This document shows, piece after piece, positions 1,353 to 5,522 of a stretch of 5,541 nt of DNA. Positions within the stretch are counted from its first letter, which is position 1; the number at the start of each line of letters is the position of its first letter. A program made the position numbers and the translations under genes. The notes under the pieces were generated by a model. It had not been told where the DNA came from, made no database searches, and saw nothing but the letters and a program-made list of their open reading frames with translations. This DNA comes from Pseudomonadota bacterium (GTDB taxonomy: Bacteria; Pseudomonadota; Gammaproteobacteria; Steroidobacterales; Steroidobacteraceae), in assembly GCA_021808195.1 (NCBI GenBank), contig JAKBCE010000171.1, forward strand, positions 1-5,541, in the 5' to 3' direction.

Positions 1353-2498
1353 TCAGGCGGCCACCGGCGGAGCGAGCGGCGTCTCGCTGAGCTCGGCGAG
1401 CAGCGGCAGGCGGATCTCCGCCACCCAGCGTCCGCCGGGTCGCGGCGCGGCCTCGAAGGTGGCGCGCTCGCCGAACTGGATCGCGAGCCGTTCCCGTACG
1501 TTCTTCAAACCGATCCCCTCGTGGCCGGCGGACTCATTCTGATCGATGGTGTTGCTGACCCGCAGCGTCAGCATGGAGCCCGCTTCGAACGCCTCGACGC
1601 GGATCTCGACCGCATCGGGGTGACCGGCCAGACCGTGCACGACGGCGTTCTCGATCAGCGGCTGCAGGATCAGGCTCGGCACCCAGGCACTCGGGAAGGC
1701 CTCCGGCCCCGGCACCTGCACTGTGAGCCGGTCGGAGAAGCGCCGCTGCTGCAGCGTGAGGTACAACCGGGCGAACTGCAGCTCATCGGCGAGACGCGAG
1801 AACTCGCGCTCCCCGGCGTGCAGCAGCCGGCGCAGCAGGTCGGCGAGCTGCACGATCATGCTGCGCGCATCGGCCGGGTCGCCGTCGATCTGACCGTGGA
1901 TGGTGTTGAGCAGATTGAACAGCGAGTGCGGCGAGAGCTGCATGCGCAGTGCCGCCAGATGCGAGGCCGTCAACGCCCGCTCGAGCGCCGCGGAGCGGAT
2001 CTGCGAGTCGCGCAGGCGGCGGTAGACGTCGAACCCGCTCGCCAGCGCCAGACCGAACCCGTAGGTCAGCAGGAAGCTGGTCGCGCTCGCGATCCAGATC
2101 TGGGCGAGCGGCGCGATCGGGTGCCCCGGACGCGGCGGGGAATGGGTGAGCTGGCGCAACACCTCGTGGATGCCCATCAGCACCGAGTCCCCGAGCCACA
2201 ACGTCGGCTCGGCGAGCGCCGCGAATCCCACCGCGAGCAGCAGCTGCACCGGCAGGCGCCGCCAGAACGGCATCCAGCCCAGGCGCAGCGAACTCCAGAC
2301 GCACCCGAGCAGTACCGGGTAGAGGAACAGGTGCTGCAGCAGCCGGGCGCGCCACGGGGCGAAGACGTGTCCGACGTGCATGGCCGTGAGGCTCGATTGC
2401 ATCTGGTTCGCATAGAGCACGTCGGAGAGCGCCACATAGATCCAGAACACCGTGACGATCAGCAGCAGGGGTCGGAAGCGCGCGTTCATGGGGCCCAT
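1353..2498 (-). CDS. LytS/YehU-type membrane sensor histidine kinase
   Basis: The 381-residue protein has a sensor half with about four hydrophobic segments (roughly 9-29, 52-70, 81-104 and 130-153), with no large periplasmic domain or PAS/GAF domain visible. A helical linker leads to a His_kinase (PF06580-type) domain with '[15 protein letters not shown]' (H191 as phosphoacceptor) and then an HATPase_c domain. The latter shows the N box '[15 protein letters not shown]' (N284) and the G box '[11 protein letters not shown]' (328-338). The family normally reads PHFLFN; here it is PHSLFN. Such kinases usually phosphorylate a LytTR response regulator encoded next door, but none is present. The next gene downstream is the MFS transporter, 5 bp away. 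The ATG at 2498 is chosen over the in-frame ATG at 2489 because GGGAGGG (2503-2509) sits 4 nt upstream of it. Confidence 0.92.
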
Positions 2499-2945: not shown

Positions 2946-3524
2946 CTAGCGGCACGCCCCGCCGAGCAACCCCGCCTTCAGCGCCTGCCCCGGCGGCTTC
3001 GGCCCGAGCCAGATGCCGAGGAAGGCGCGGGCAAAATCCGCCCCGGGGAGAGTGCCGGTGCGGCTGCCGTCGAGCTGGTACTCGATGCCCTGCCCGGGCC
3101 GATACGCGAACGTCATGGTGTGGCCCGAGCCGATACCGTGCATCCAACCGTTGAGTTCGGCGATGCGCCCGTGCAGTGGCGCGAGGGCCTGCGGCGCGCT
3201 CGCTTTGAACCCCTCTCGCCACGCGTCGCGCAGCTCCCCCGTGGTGACGTGCCAGAGGAAATGCAGCACGATCTCGTAGGGCTGATCGGCCGCGAGGATC
3301 GCGGCGGCATCGGCCGACGGGTGCGCCAGATAGAGCGCGCCGACGTAGACCTTGATGCGAAAGAACGTGGCCTTGCGGATGCCGAGCCCGTTGAGGGTCA
3401 GCGTCTGCCCGTGCGCCGTCACCTGCTCGGGGAAGGACACCCCGTCGCACTGGCGCGCCTGCGCCACGCCGAGCGTGAGCGCGAGCAGCATCGCGCCAAT
3501 GAGACTCCTGGTCCGGATACCCAT
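2946..3524 (-). CDS. Secreted chalcone-isomerase-like domain protein
   Basis: The 192-residue precursor has a clear Sec signal peptide: arginines at 4 and 6, a hydrophobic core of about 8-20, and likely cleavage after AQA (about residue 23). The mature protein carries 'LNGLGIRKATFFRIKVYVGALYL' (44-66), then 'YEIVLHFLWHVTTGELRDAWREGF' and 'GSGHTMTFAYRPGQGIEYQLDG'. This is the pattern of the bacterial chalcone isomerase-like family (PF16036 type), which is periplasmic and whose function is not established; it should not be called a flavonoid enzyme. C26 and C191 near the two ends could form a disulfide. The ATG at 3524 is chosen because GAGGGG lies 6 nt upstream and the signal peptide starts there. 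A GTG at 3563 would add 13 residues encoded across a hairpin. The gene lies 76 bp downstream of the Nramp-like gene and may be cotranscribed. Confidence 0.85.
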   Translation of the reverse strand: MGIRTRSLIGAMLLALTLGVAQARQCDGVSFPEQVTAHGQTLTLNGLGIRKATFFRIKVYVGALYLAHPSADAAAILAADQPYEIVLHFLWHVTTGELRDAWREGFKASAPQALAPLHGRIAELNGWMHGIGSGHTMTFAYRPGQGIEYQLDGSRTGTLPGADFARAFLGIWLGPKPPGQALKAGLLGGACR

Positions 3525-3540
3525 GCTCGCCCCCTCGCAG

Positions 3541-3561
3541 GGCCGCGCCCGGTGCGCGGCC
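3541..3561 (-). repeat. Perfect 8-bp stem-loop between the Nramp-like and chalcone-isomerase-like genes
   Basis: GGCCGCGC (3541-3548) and GCGCGGCC (3554-3561) are exact complements around a 5-nt loop. No T-run follows on either strand, so it does not look like a standard intrinsic terminator. It lies 16 bp upstream of the ATG at 3524, next to that gene's RBS, and could block 3' exonucleases or slow read-through in a Nramp/chalcone-isomerase-like transcript. Its role is inferred. Confidence 0.55.
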
Positions 3562-3600
3562 ACCCGCTGAAGACTACCACGGCGAGGAGCCGCACCGGAT

Positions 3601-5229
3601 TCAGAGGTGCAGACCCGAGAGCATCACGATACGCACCAGGAGCAGCCCGCCGGCGATGACCAGATAGGCTCGCAGCGCGCCCATCCCCAGCCGGGTCGGG
3701 GGCGTCAGACGCGCCCGCTTCAGCGAGCTCAGCGCCGGCATCTGCCAGTTCTCGCGCGCCCCGGAGGCGAACTGGCGCGCCGGCGTGCGCAGCGCCCGTA
3801 CGAACGGCGGGACCGCCACGACGAGCGCCACCGCTGCGCCGCCGCCGAGCACCTCGAGCATCACGTGCGCACCGAGCGAGGGGAACAGGACCGCGGCGGT
3901 CAGGATGATCGACAGCAGCAGCAGCGCCCCGATCACCAGCGCGGTGAACAGGTTCAGCCACGGACCGTTCACCCACGGCCCGAGCAGCTCCTCGTCATTG
4001 CACAGCAGCAGCAGGAACACCGTCGCGCTCGGCAGCAGCACCCCGGCGAGCGTCTGCACTGCATTGGTGAGCAGTCCGAGCGGCGTGCCGGGCGTGAGCA
4101 CCAGCACGGCCGACAGTCCGATCAGGCCGGCATAGATCAGATAGAACGACTTCGCTTCCTTCGGCCGCTGGTGCAGGGAGTGGCTGAGGGAGAGCACGTC
4201 GCCGACCGCGTAGGCCGTCGAGAGCGACACGGCCATCGCGCCGATGATGCTCGCATCGATCAGCGCCACGGCGAAGCACACCCCGGCGGCATGCCCAACG
4301 TAGTGCCCGATCGCCGCGGCCACCGCGCCGGCGTCCTGGAAGGCCCCGAACTGCGCCCGGCCGGCGAAGGTCGCGGCGGTGAAGCTGATCATGGCCACCG
4401 CGCCGATCACGACCAGCACGATCCCGAGACACAGATCGAGCCGCTCGTAGGACATGAAGCGCGGCGTGATGCGCTTGTCGATCACGTAGCTTTGCTGAAA
4501 GAACAGCTGCCACGGCGCCACGGTCGTGCCGACGATCGCAATGATGAGCAGCATGATCTGGCTGAGATGCCCGCTCGGCAGATGCGGCACGAGCAGATCG
4601 TGCGCCACCTGATGCAGCGGCGGGTGCACCCAGAGGAACACCGGCAGCAGCAGCAGGCTGCCGGCGACCAGCACCATCGAGAAGCGCTCGAAGCGGCGGA
4701 AGTCACCCGTTCCGGCCGCCGCCACGATGATCACCGCGGCGGCGAGCACCCCGAGCGGACGCGACACGCCCAGATAGCCGAGCGCGAGGCTGATGCCGAT
4801 GAACTCGGTGACGATGGTCAGGGCGTTGAGCAGGAACAGGTCGATCACGCTGAAGGCGCCCCAGAAGCGTCCATAGCGCTTGAGGATCAGGCGCGCGTGG
4901 CCGGTGCGGGTCACCGCGCCGAGACGCAGCACCATTTCCTGATTGACGTAGAGCACCGGCACCAGCAGCAACAGCGTCCACAGCAGCGCCGTGCCGTAGT
5001 TCTGGCCGGCCTGGGCATAGGTGCCGAAGGCGCCGGCGTCATTGTCGCCGACCATGACGATGAGGCCCGGACCGAGGATGGCGAGCAGCGTGCGCAGCCG
5101 CGCGCCCCAGCCGCTGCGCATCGCGCCGTCGTGGCGGGAAATGGTGCCGAACGCGCCGCGGATCTCACCGGCGTGCGCATCGCAGAGCAGCGCCTCGGCC
5201 GGCGCAGCATCAGTCTCGGAGAAGGACAT
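3601..5229 (-). CDS. Nramp-superfamily divalent cation transporter with a non-canonical metal site
   Basis: The 542-residue inner-membrane protein has a cytoplasmic N-terminal tail (1-45) and about 11 hydrophobic segments. It has the Nramp (PF01566) landmarks 'GPGLIVMVGDNDAGAFGTYAQAGQNYG' in TM1 (53-79) and 'AIVGTTVAPWQLFFQQS' in TM6 (231-247). Aligned to MntH-type proteins, DPGN becomes D64-A-G-A67 and MPHN becomes A238-P-W240-Q241. The Asp is kept, while the Asn and Met that contact Mn/Fe are both Ala; D62 and N63 precede the motif. This points away from classical Mn/Fe uptake and toward the Nramp-related transporters of uncertain or Mg2+ specificity. Substrate is inferred; the superfamily is secure. 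It is longer than MntH (about 410), with extra sequence at both ends, including a basic loop (480-513) before a final hydrophobic segment. The start at 5229 is set by GAGGA (5237-5241) with 7-nt spacing. It is preceded by a long structured leader. Confidence 0.9.
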   Translation of the reverse strand: MSFSETDAAPAEALLCDAHAGEIRGAFGTISRHDGAMRSGWGARLRTLLAILGPGLIVMVGDNDAGAFGTYAQAGQNYGTALLWTLLLLVPVLYVNQEMVLRLGAVTRTGHARLILKRYGRFWGAFSVIDLFLLNALTIVTEFIGISLALGYLGVSRPLGVLAAAVIIVAAAGTGDFRRFERFSMVLVAGSLLLLPVFLWVHPPLHQVAHDLLVPHLPSGHLSQIMLLIIAIVGTTVAPWQLFFQQSYVIDKRITPRFMSYERLDLCLGIVLVVIGAVAMISFTAATFAGRAQFGAFQDAGAVAAAIGHYVGHAAGVCFAVALIDASIIGAMAVSLSTAYAVGDVLSLSHSLHQRPKEAKSFYLIYAGLIGLSAVLVLTPGTPLGLLTNAVQTLAGVLLPSATVFLLLLCNDEELLGPWVNGPWLNLFTALVIGALLLLSIILTAAVLFPSLGAHVMLEVLGGGAAVALVVAVPPFVRALRTPARQFASGARENWQMPALSSLKRARLTPPTRLGMGALRAYLVIAGGLLLVRIVMLSGLHL

Positions 5230-5236
5230 CGGTCAT

Positions 5237-5302
5237 TCCTCACATCGCGTTGACCGGCGAGACTCGGGAGTCTCGCCCGCTCAGATTCGCTTCTGGAGGA
5301 TG
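5237..5302 (-). promoter_or_regulatory. Transporter RBS and possible anti-Shine-Dalgarno partner
   Basis: The RBS GAGGA (5237-5241) could pair with UCCUC (5296-5300). The helix extends to CAUCCUC (5296-5302) against GAGGAAUG (5234-5241) with one bulged A. This closes a loop around the 10-bp hairpin at 5256-5277 and would hide the RBS. The complementarity is visible; use in the cell is inferred. Confidence 0.35.
5256..5277 (-). repeat. 10-bp perfect palindrome upstream of the transporter RBS
   Basis: GGCGAGACTC (5256-5265) and GAGTCTCGCC (5268-5277) are exact complements with a 2-nt centre. As RNA this is a 9-bp stem with a CCCG loop, ending about 14 nt before the Shine-Dalgarno. It could also be a DNA operator, but its position far downstream of the only good promoter favours an RNA role. 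Confidence 0.6.
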
Positions 5303-5306
5303 CGCT

Positions 5307-5384
5307 CGACCGTCTGGATCGGTCGGCGCGCGGCCGCAGGCCGCGCGATACGCACCGTCCCGCTTCAGATCGCGGGACGGCTGC
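5307..5384 (-). repeat. Three stacked stem-loops in the leader
   Basis: Three perfect stem-loops follow almost without gaps. CCGUCCCGC/GCGGGACGG (5372-5380 with 5355-5363) is flanked by GCA/UGC, CGCGCGGCC/GGCCGCGCG is at 5339-5347 with 5327-5335, and CGACCG/CGGUCG is at 5320-5325 with 5307-5312. Four nucleotides separate the first two and one separates the last two, so they could stack coaxially. The 3' arm of the first (GAAGCGG, 5360-5366, including part of its loop) also complements CCGCUUC in the upstream ORF (5439-5445), giving a mutually exclusive alternative fold. Confidence 0.5.
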
Positions 5385-5385
5385 C

Positions 5386-5401
5386 GGAGGGAGGTGTAGG
5401 A
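5386..5401 (-). promoter_or_regulatory. C-rich, G-free segment (possible Rho loading site)
   Basis: On the minus strand 5401-5386 reads TCCTACACCTCCCTCC: nine C and no G. It is not part of any stem identified here and begins 26 nt after the upstream ORF stop. Such C-over-G single-stranded stretches are the usual feature of rut sites, but they are short and degenerate, so this is suggestive only. Confidence 0.3.
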
Positions 5402-5426
5402 CCTGGCCCGGGAGACGTTCCGCCGA

Positions 5427-5465
5427 TCACTCGGCGAAGAAGCGGCTACTAGGGCTAGGGTCCAT
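5427..5465 (-). CDS. Putative 12-residue leader peptide (MDPSPSSRFFAE)
   Basis: The ATG at 5463-5465 opens a 12-codon frame ending in TGA at 5427-5429, which is inside the GUGA loop of the stem at 5421-5436. A partial Shine-Dalgarno, GGAA, lies 5 nt upstream, and the predicted transcript start is about 23 nt upstream. An acidic residue at 2 and prolines at 3 and 5 match the start of enterobacterial MgtL (MEPDP...), the leader peptide that controls the Mg2+ transporter gene mgtA by Mg2+-sensitive ribosome behaviour. Both prolines are CCT, expected to be uncommon in so GC-rich a genome, and sit in a tandem CTAGGG repeat (5449-5460). Short ORFs arise by chance, so coding status and function are inferred. 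Confidence 0.4.
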   Translation of the reverse strand: MDPSPSSRFFAE

Positions 5466-5488: not shown

Positions 5489-5522
5489 GCGCGCATCTTA
5501 TGCATATGCGCGCACAAGTCAA
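5489..5522 (-). promoter_or_regulatory. Sigma70-like promoter of the Nramp-like gene with an overlapping palindromic operator
   Basis: On the minus strand, TTGACT (5517-5522, 5/6 to consensus) and TAAGAT (5495-5500, 4/6) are separated by 16 bp, with a predicted start near 5488. A perfect inverted repeat, GCGCGCAT (minus 5513-5506) with ATGCGCGC (minus 5496-5489) around a 9-nt centre, covers the downstream part of the spacer, the -10 and the start region. That position suits repression by a dimeric regulator. It does not look like the Fur or MntR boxes I know. The T-run at 5535-5541 may be an upstream promoter element or the U-tract of a terminator of a gene beyond the window. Confidence 0.55.

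Follow-up and report, generated by a model that had tools for sequence, protein, structure and literature searches.

A conserved short ORF in the structured leader of NRMT-like transporter genes as a candidate translated control element

The leader ORF and its transporter gene

The window, by which we mean the entire 5,541-nt stretch of Steroidobacteraceae DNA analyzed here, encodes on its minus strand an Nramp-type transporter of 542 aa (3601..5229), ahead of which runs a minus-strand leader of ~260 nt in total. Within this leader lies a 12-codon ORF (5427..5465, minus), MDPSPSSRFFAE, which extends from an ATG at 5465-5463 to a TGA at 5429-5427, contains a CCT-AGT core, and lies 236 nt upstream of the Nramp gene. 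Both of its prolines are encoded by CCT, and its Shine-Dalgarno (SD) sequence is weak (CCCGGAACC). Promoter scanning and the alignment place a sigma-70-like promoter (5495..5522, minus) ahead of the ORF, with TTGACT at 5522-5517, a 16-nt spacer, and TAAGAT at 5500-5495; the scan returned a single match, compared with a mean of 0.3 for shuffled sequences, and TTGAC is invariant across the eight aligned sequences. A first-pass annotation of this DNA had described such an ORF, with a weak SD and a good promoter ahead of it, in the long leader of a cation-transporter gene, and each of these elements held up.

The transporter matches Pfam Nramp (E 5.3e-78). Among PDB entries, the one closest to it in sequence is 7qia (E 7.9e-49; runner-up 1.2e-16), which we take to be the structure of EleNRMT. 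PMC8806188 describes EleNRMT as differing from Nramp in Met to Ala and Ala to Thr replacements, in Trp and Asn at the positions of Nramp's two His, and in Gly at that of the helix-1 Asn; NRMTs are presented there and in PMC4072509 as Mg2+ transporters. In helix 6, the window protein (GTTVAPW) aligns with 7qia (GTTIAPW), and the NRMT changes to Ala, to Thr, and from the first His to Trp are all present; the second His position is Gln. Helix 1 reads NDAGA in the window and NDAGG in 7qia. Because the Asn site of the DxxN motif is thus occupied by Ala rather than by the Gly of EleNRMT, we label the protein "NRMT-like" and not NRMT. From its sequence, we infer that the protein would transport Mg2+.

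Elsewhere in the window, a sensor kinase gene with a His_kinase domain (PF06580) occupies 1353-2498 (minus), and no response regulator was found among the five window proteins scanned. An Rfam search gave no match in the leader, which rules out a known RNA family there; the sole match in the window at E <=1 was a sub-threshold miRNA match at 1584-1626.

Conservation among close relatives

In the species genome collection, at least 585 relatives were confirmed, the best 80 of which were kept. Seven relatives with transporters 80-99% identical to that of the window preserve the start, frame, and stop of the leader ORF: L001, whose transporter is 99% identical, and L002-L006 and L111 (80-90%), whose leader peptides read MDPSPSSRFIAD, MDPGPSSRFIAD, or MDPSPSSRFIAV. 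The first-pass annotation had proposed comparing orthologous leaders in this way, and among these close orthologues the ORF is retained while its flanks drift. In the eight-sequence alignment, 34 of 39 ORF columns are invariant with no indel, compared with 21 of 40 immediately upstream and 17 of 40, with indels, immediately downstream. A second 40-column block downstream, the site of a hairpin (H2) discussed below, has 26 invariant columns, and the final 60 columns ahead of the transporter gene have 17.

As read from the alignment, one of the five variable ORF columns in the window clade is synonymous and four are non-synonymous. Given this ratio, the window clade alone is no proof of selection on the peptide, and constraint at the RNA level explains much of the ORF conservation within it. 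The near-identity of the core at every codon position in this clade likewise favors an alternative in which the RNA is what is conserved, with CCUAGU and the hairpins binding a metal or protein and the ORF used little or not at all. We judge this alternative unlikely.

Distribution of related leader ORFs

The DNA pattern ATGGANCCNNNNCC was the sole motif taken from the first-pass annotation; it was worded after that annotation's motif, yet run after a broader scan had already given matches. It had 13 matches in the 700 nt upstream of the 80 related genes (54,981 bp, sense strand) and 3 in 1,394,497 bp elsewhere in those loci, so that 0.12 matches were expected where 13 were observed. Since 6 of the 13 belong to a single close clade, the matches represent seven or eight lineages. 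The first-pass annotation had held a chance ORF to be a real alternative, and the shortness of the ORF and the weak SD in the window do speak for it. Against the excess of motif matches and the conserved start, frame, and stop, a chance origin is now barely conceivable, and the 12-codon ORF, as far as sequence can indicate, is very probably a control device rather than a chance reading frame.

Further genome searches extended the best 80 to a full set of 107 distinct loci, which fall into 43 clusters when proteins are grouped at 85% identity. A related short ORF precedes the transporter gene at 70 of the 107 loci (27 clusters), a descriptive count, because the peptide patterns were partly read off the same data. 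Some of the 70 are weak members (L016, L074, and L100), and at least three loci counted as leaderless (L057, L064, and L070) each show a related ORF. The 37 loci without a counted leader ORF include a clade of nine Dyella-type loci.

Leader ORFs occur in Pseudomonadota, Actinomycetota, and, by way of plasmid loci, Bacillota. Thirteen plasmid loci were chosen from 40 of 41 plasmid records. Seven bear a leader ORF (L141, L143, L144, L162, L163, L164, and L167) and in five none was seen; in L161 (Alicyclobacillus sp. SO9), the leader core is as in L143, with GTA where L143 has its GTG start. The ORF is unannotated in all seven plasmid loci that bear it, although the gene table is incomplete (zero features for L144, L164, and L166). 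Several further observations concern these loci. Within 1181-1520 of L161, no transporter gene is listed, and the match is split in two pieces. A second small ORF of the MNFGLLLS.. type lies between the leader and the NRMT-like gene in L030, L144, L164, and L167, with Burkholderia and Paraburkholderia as hosts; in L167, it spans 46 aa and is annotated as hypothetical (WP_164531308.1). A gene for a CBS-domain protein adjoins the transporter gene in the actinobacterial plasmids L142, L146, L162, and L163. The transporter gene itself was found in 41 of 72,556 plasmid records at E 1e-80 and is patchy among searched genome groups at E 1e-100 (4/117, 8/250, 5/249, 9/399, and 10/197 genomes). The patchy spread of the NRMT-like gene suggests horizontal transfer.

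What members of the family share is a short ORF, mostly behind a good SD, that opens with a stretch rich in Pro and Ser and in many cases has CCT-AGT as its core. Representative peptides are MDPYPSSAV in Aquitalea; MDPSSSRPV at five loci of the genus Pseudomonas; MEPGPSSSC and MDPDPSWRR in Burkholderiales, some leaders of which read MDPDPS; MPDPEPCSC and MDSDSYP in Paraburkholderia and kin; MDSPSRPYP in Ralstonia; MNDGPSRP and MDEGPSCP, often with a TTG start, in Alphaproteobacteria; and MDCSCSSPGHSRP in Streptomyces. The first-pass annotation had proposed an MgtL-like acidic-proline leader peptide, matching at residues 2, 3, and 5. The match in type is correct (acid at 2 and Pro at 3 and 5 in MDPSP), and acidic-proline ORFs do recur before distant NRMT-like genes; the second acid is absent, with Asp2 the only early acidic residue of the window peptide and Ser at position 4. 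As a definition of the family, "acidic-proline" proved too narrow, since some members lack an early acid (MNPRPSS, MTPRPSN) and others lean toward Ser and Cys (MDSCSRS, MDCSCSSPGH).

ORFs that are preceded by an SD, have an acid at residue 2 or 3, and contain at least three Pro/Ser in residues 2-9 were found in 39 of 86 sense sequences (14 clusters), 0 of 43 antisense sequences, and 0 of 23 and 0 of 15 far-upstream controls. With the acid at residue 2 or 3 as the only requirement, the counts were 45 of 86 (sense), 8 of 43 (antisense), and, in the two far-upstream controls, 2 of 23 and 0 of 15; both features, strict and looser, were picked after the peptides had been seen. The window clade falls outside the SD-ORF count because its SD is weak. 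On a tree, the leader label required 20 changes, compared with a shuffled mean of 30.7 (0 of 500 shuffles as low), a difference to which near-copies contribute. In most clades, the start codon varies among ATG, GTG, and TTG, retaining start function and preceded by an SD, and Asp and Glu exchange between leaders (MDPGP and MEPGP). This correct placement of varying start codons behind good SDs, the Asp/Glu exchange, and the sense-strand enrichment of SD-ORFs all count against an RNA element with a little-used or idle ORF, as does the lack of an Rfam match in the window leader.

Rare codons in the leader

Within codons 2-9 of the leaders at 69 loci, AGT accounts for 79 of 131 Ser codons and CCT for 49 of 128 Pro codons. 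The NRMT-like genes at these 69 loci use AGT for 4.6% of Ser codons and CCT for 5.1% of Pro codons, in agreement with the earlier supposition that the CCT prolines of the window ORF are probably rare. Position at the start of a gene does not by itself account for the excess in leaders, since codons 2-9 of the NRMT-like genes themselves lack it (AGT 0/66, CCT 5/35). With the usual G34 tRNAs, both CCT and AGT would be read by third-position wobble. The pattern fits slow translation as well as an RNA-level need for those letters.

Strong enrichment of rare Pro and Ser codons is also a point in favor of an attenuator that responds to tRNA charging (Pro, Ser) or to general ribosome slowing, with no role for Mg2+, and the leaders that are rich in Ser and Cys or lack an acid point the same way. 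The linkage of the leaders to NRMT-like genes, and at some loci also to an M-box, argues against this explanation, which we consider improbable.

RNA structure of the leader

Fold prediction and the alignment identify a hairpin, H1 (5420..5437, minus), that overlaps the end of the ORF. Its stem pairs CGCCGA with UCGGCG and includes a U.G pair, its loop in the window holds the leader stop codon, and the stem is preserved as CGCCGT..ACGGCG in L005 and L006. Following the ORF is a C-rich, G-poor stretch (5386..5405, minus) with 11 C and 2 G in 20 nt, counted in L001 and identical in the window, which we regard as a possible Rho loading site. Across 27 clusters, (C-G) bias peaks 60-80 nt past the ORF start (mean 0.161 +- 0.024), and the leader maximum exceeds that of the gene with a modest signal (p 0.006).

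The second hairpin, H2 (CCGUCCCGC..GCGGGACGG; 5354..5381, minus), is common to Burkholderiales and other NRMT-like leaders. It was assessed in 15 sequences selected by eye because they show such a hairpin; the near-copies L001 (with the window in its place), L003, L111, and L045 were left out of the set. Paired cells make up 96.7% of the total, and compensatory change is seen at 6 of 10 pairs. Four of five measures lie above every one of 500 shuffles. The fifth, the number of further pair types, came to 11, whereas shuffles averaged 13.1 and 499 of 500 were equal to or above the observed value. For a set of 14 alphaproteobacterial leaders, the RNAalifold prediction is a hairpin beginning 3 nt past AGT; all 7 of its pairs show compensatory change, and 16 of its 98 cells are broken or gapped. 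A further predicted hairpin, GGCGAGACU..AGUCUCGCC (5256..5277, minus), lies directly 5' of the transporter ribosome-binding site (RBS) and is only partly kept in relatives. Over the 27 clusters, the mean fold z is -1.11 just past the core (14 clusters below -1) and -1.43 at +66 to +130, as opposed to +0.22 in the ORF start region and -0.29 in gene segments used as controls. Compensatory changes in hairpins that overlap or come after the ORF indicate that selection acts on the RNA as well. These covarying hairpins, the window leader MFE z of -3.29, and the retention of CCTAGT even in a Bacillota leader speak for the conserved-RNA alternative introduced above.

In the window clade, the leader pairs with the transporter SD no more strongly than shuffled sequences do (z +1.0 for L001). 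Elsewhere, z <= -2 was reached at 6 of the 40 loci scored out of 69, four of them alphaproteobacterial, with gene starts set by simple scoring. The conserved CAUCCUC had suggested a direct anti-SD in the leader of the window, which its pairing, not above that of shuffles, did not bear out, and inspection of the window leader by eye found no pairing partner for CCUAGU.

Association with the M-box riboswitch

At three loci, an M-box riboswitch lies upstream of the leader ORF, with the following distances from its end to the ORF: 86 nt in L058 (M-box 3445-3617, ORF 3703), 93 nt in L051 (3347-3523, ORF 3616), and 89 nt in L143 of Alicyclobacillus (1272-1436, ORF 1525), where the ORF begins GTG GAT TCA GGT CCT AGT CAT. 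An M-box also lies upstream of the gene in L057 and L064, whose ORFs were seen but fall outside the count. In the genome of L058 (G1488), the region of L158 from 1480 to 2100 shows a further M-box, behind which come a related ORF, MDRGPHGPGHSRPH, and an additional NRMT-like gene. M-box control of some NRMT genes is already known from other phyla (PMC4072509). The M-box model was run against 24 genomes and matched somewhere in 5 of 7 actinobacterial and 0 of 17 proteobacterial ones. L059, L061, and L065 have a leader ORF and no M-box match in the scanned loci; the leader ORF thus occurs at loci that have the riboswitch and at loci that lack it. For the window clade, no M-box (RF00380) was found: the window gave no match at E 1, nor did the model match in G001, the genome to which the 99% relative belongs.

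The M-box association in other phyla, together with the NRMT signature Thr..Ala-Pro-Trp, also weighs against the possibility that the leader is real and the transporter and signal are those of another metal (Mn, Co, or Ni). On the other side, three plasmid loci have as neighbor a gene whose annotation is that of a metal-sensing or metal/formaldehyde-sensitive repressor, a Co(II)/Ni(II) efflux gene also adjoins one of the three loci, and the DxxN Asn site is Ala in the window protein and Gly in EleNRMT. We give this possibility little credence.

A model for leader control

We think it probable, with some reserve, that a translated leader ORF and a structured RNA leader together control the NRMT-like gene in cis. 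Ribosomes would pause or drop off at the D-P-x-P-S codons, including the rare CCU and AGU, early in the leader, and would do so more often at low cytosolic Mg2+. Upon such early failure, H1 and the downstream RNA would stay folded, and the transporter would be transcribed and translated. At high Mg2+, smooth translation to the stop codon inside H1 would disturb the fold and turn the gene off. The shut-off step might be Rho acting on the C-rich stretch; in some other lineages, the RBS of the transporter gene may be masked instead. In this model, the direction of the response, its signal, and the step at which it acts (Rho or RBS) are all putative.

A bolder proposal, which we advance only tentatively and hold to be more doubtful than not, is that an old module of a D/P/S-rich ORF, with CCU-AGU as rare codons read by wobble, and hairpins is a shared Mg2+ sensor of NRMT leaders across three phyla, with translation as the sensor, acting alone in Pseudomonadota and with an M-box elsewhere, and that the N-terminal MDPSPSS of Pseudomonas CNNM/CorC-type proteins would represent the opposite sign, applied to an exporter. 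A 20-letter form of the core matched 5 of 299 Pseudomonadota genomes, and the reversed-pattern control gave 0 among the matches listed. One match is the leader itself (G001), one has no obvious gene (L151), and three (L147 minus, L148, and L149; start 1501) are the N-terminus MDPSPSS of a Pseudomonas-type CNNM/CorC protein, encoded with CCT/CCC-AGT-AGC codons. Relatives of this protein carry PF01595, PF03471, and PF00571, and 78 of the best 120 relatives (of 6664) start with M[DE]PxP. The occurrence may be a coincidence or the leader principle applied to an exporter.

The class of leader ORFs (MgtL, MgtQ) is known, and no description of the NRMT-leader family was found among open-access papers searched by title and opening of the abstract. 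Mg2+ leader peptides that work through faltering translation were found described for a few enterobacterial genes only; if true, the occurrence of such a family in three phyla, ahead of another kind of transporter, would make the principle general. It would also explain how proteobacterial NRMT-like genes that lack an M-box might be controlled and supply dozens of natural variants as a test set for ribosome-destabilizing codons and residues. A leader ORF and a riboswitch stacked within a single leader are seen here as well.

Comparison with known systems

MgtL, which precedes mgtA in E. coli and Salmonella, resembles the window ORF in being a very short ORF within a long structured leader of a Mg2+ transporter gene and in having an acid at residue 2 and Pro at 3 and 5 (PMC11282234). 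Fragile early elongation in the mgtL leader is described in PMC11282234 and PMC11552253, and the EttA work points to repeated acidic residues (PMC11282234). MgtL has both Glu2 and Asp4 in its EPDP (PMC11282234), whereas the window has Asp2 and Ser4, and this single early acidic residue counts against a strict copy of MgtL. The window transporter is moreover an Nramp relative from other lineages; the likeness proposed is in mode of action only, and we do not file the window ORF as an MgtL member.

MgtQ, before mgtB in Salmonella, is an 8-codon acidic ORF that overlaps a stem switching RBS access (PMC8092293), much as the predicted H1 overlaps the window ORF. MgtQ has a strong SD and is intergenic within an operon (PMC8092293), unlike the window ORF with its weak SD, and pairing scores relative to shuffles revealed no masking of the transporter SD in the window clade.

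The M-box (ykoK, RF00380), absent from the window, precedes the leader ORF in L051, L058, and L143. A comparable arrangement is found in mycobacteria, where uORF1 and uORF2 before pe20 (Rv1805A) are short ORFs with conserved SDs that follow an M-box (PMC12810186). In M. tuberculosis, uORF1 has rare codons, including CCT, and shows poor expression, and a deletion of most of the uORF1 coding region raised expression 2.5-fold (PMC12810186); by analogy, this is an independent hint that such ORFs may translate poorly. By its authors' account, uORF2 is specific to mycobacteria (PMC12810186), unlike the three-phylum leader family. Finally, corL, upstream of corA, is like the window ORF a uORF in a leader; the corL leader is Mg2+-responsive with Rho involved, and corL differs from the window ORF in its UUG start and in having fewer acidic or Pro residues (PMC11552253).
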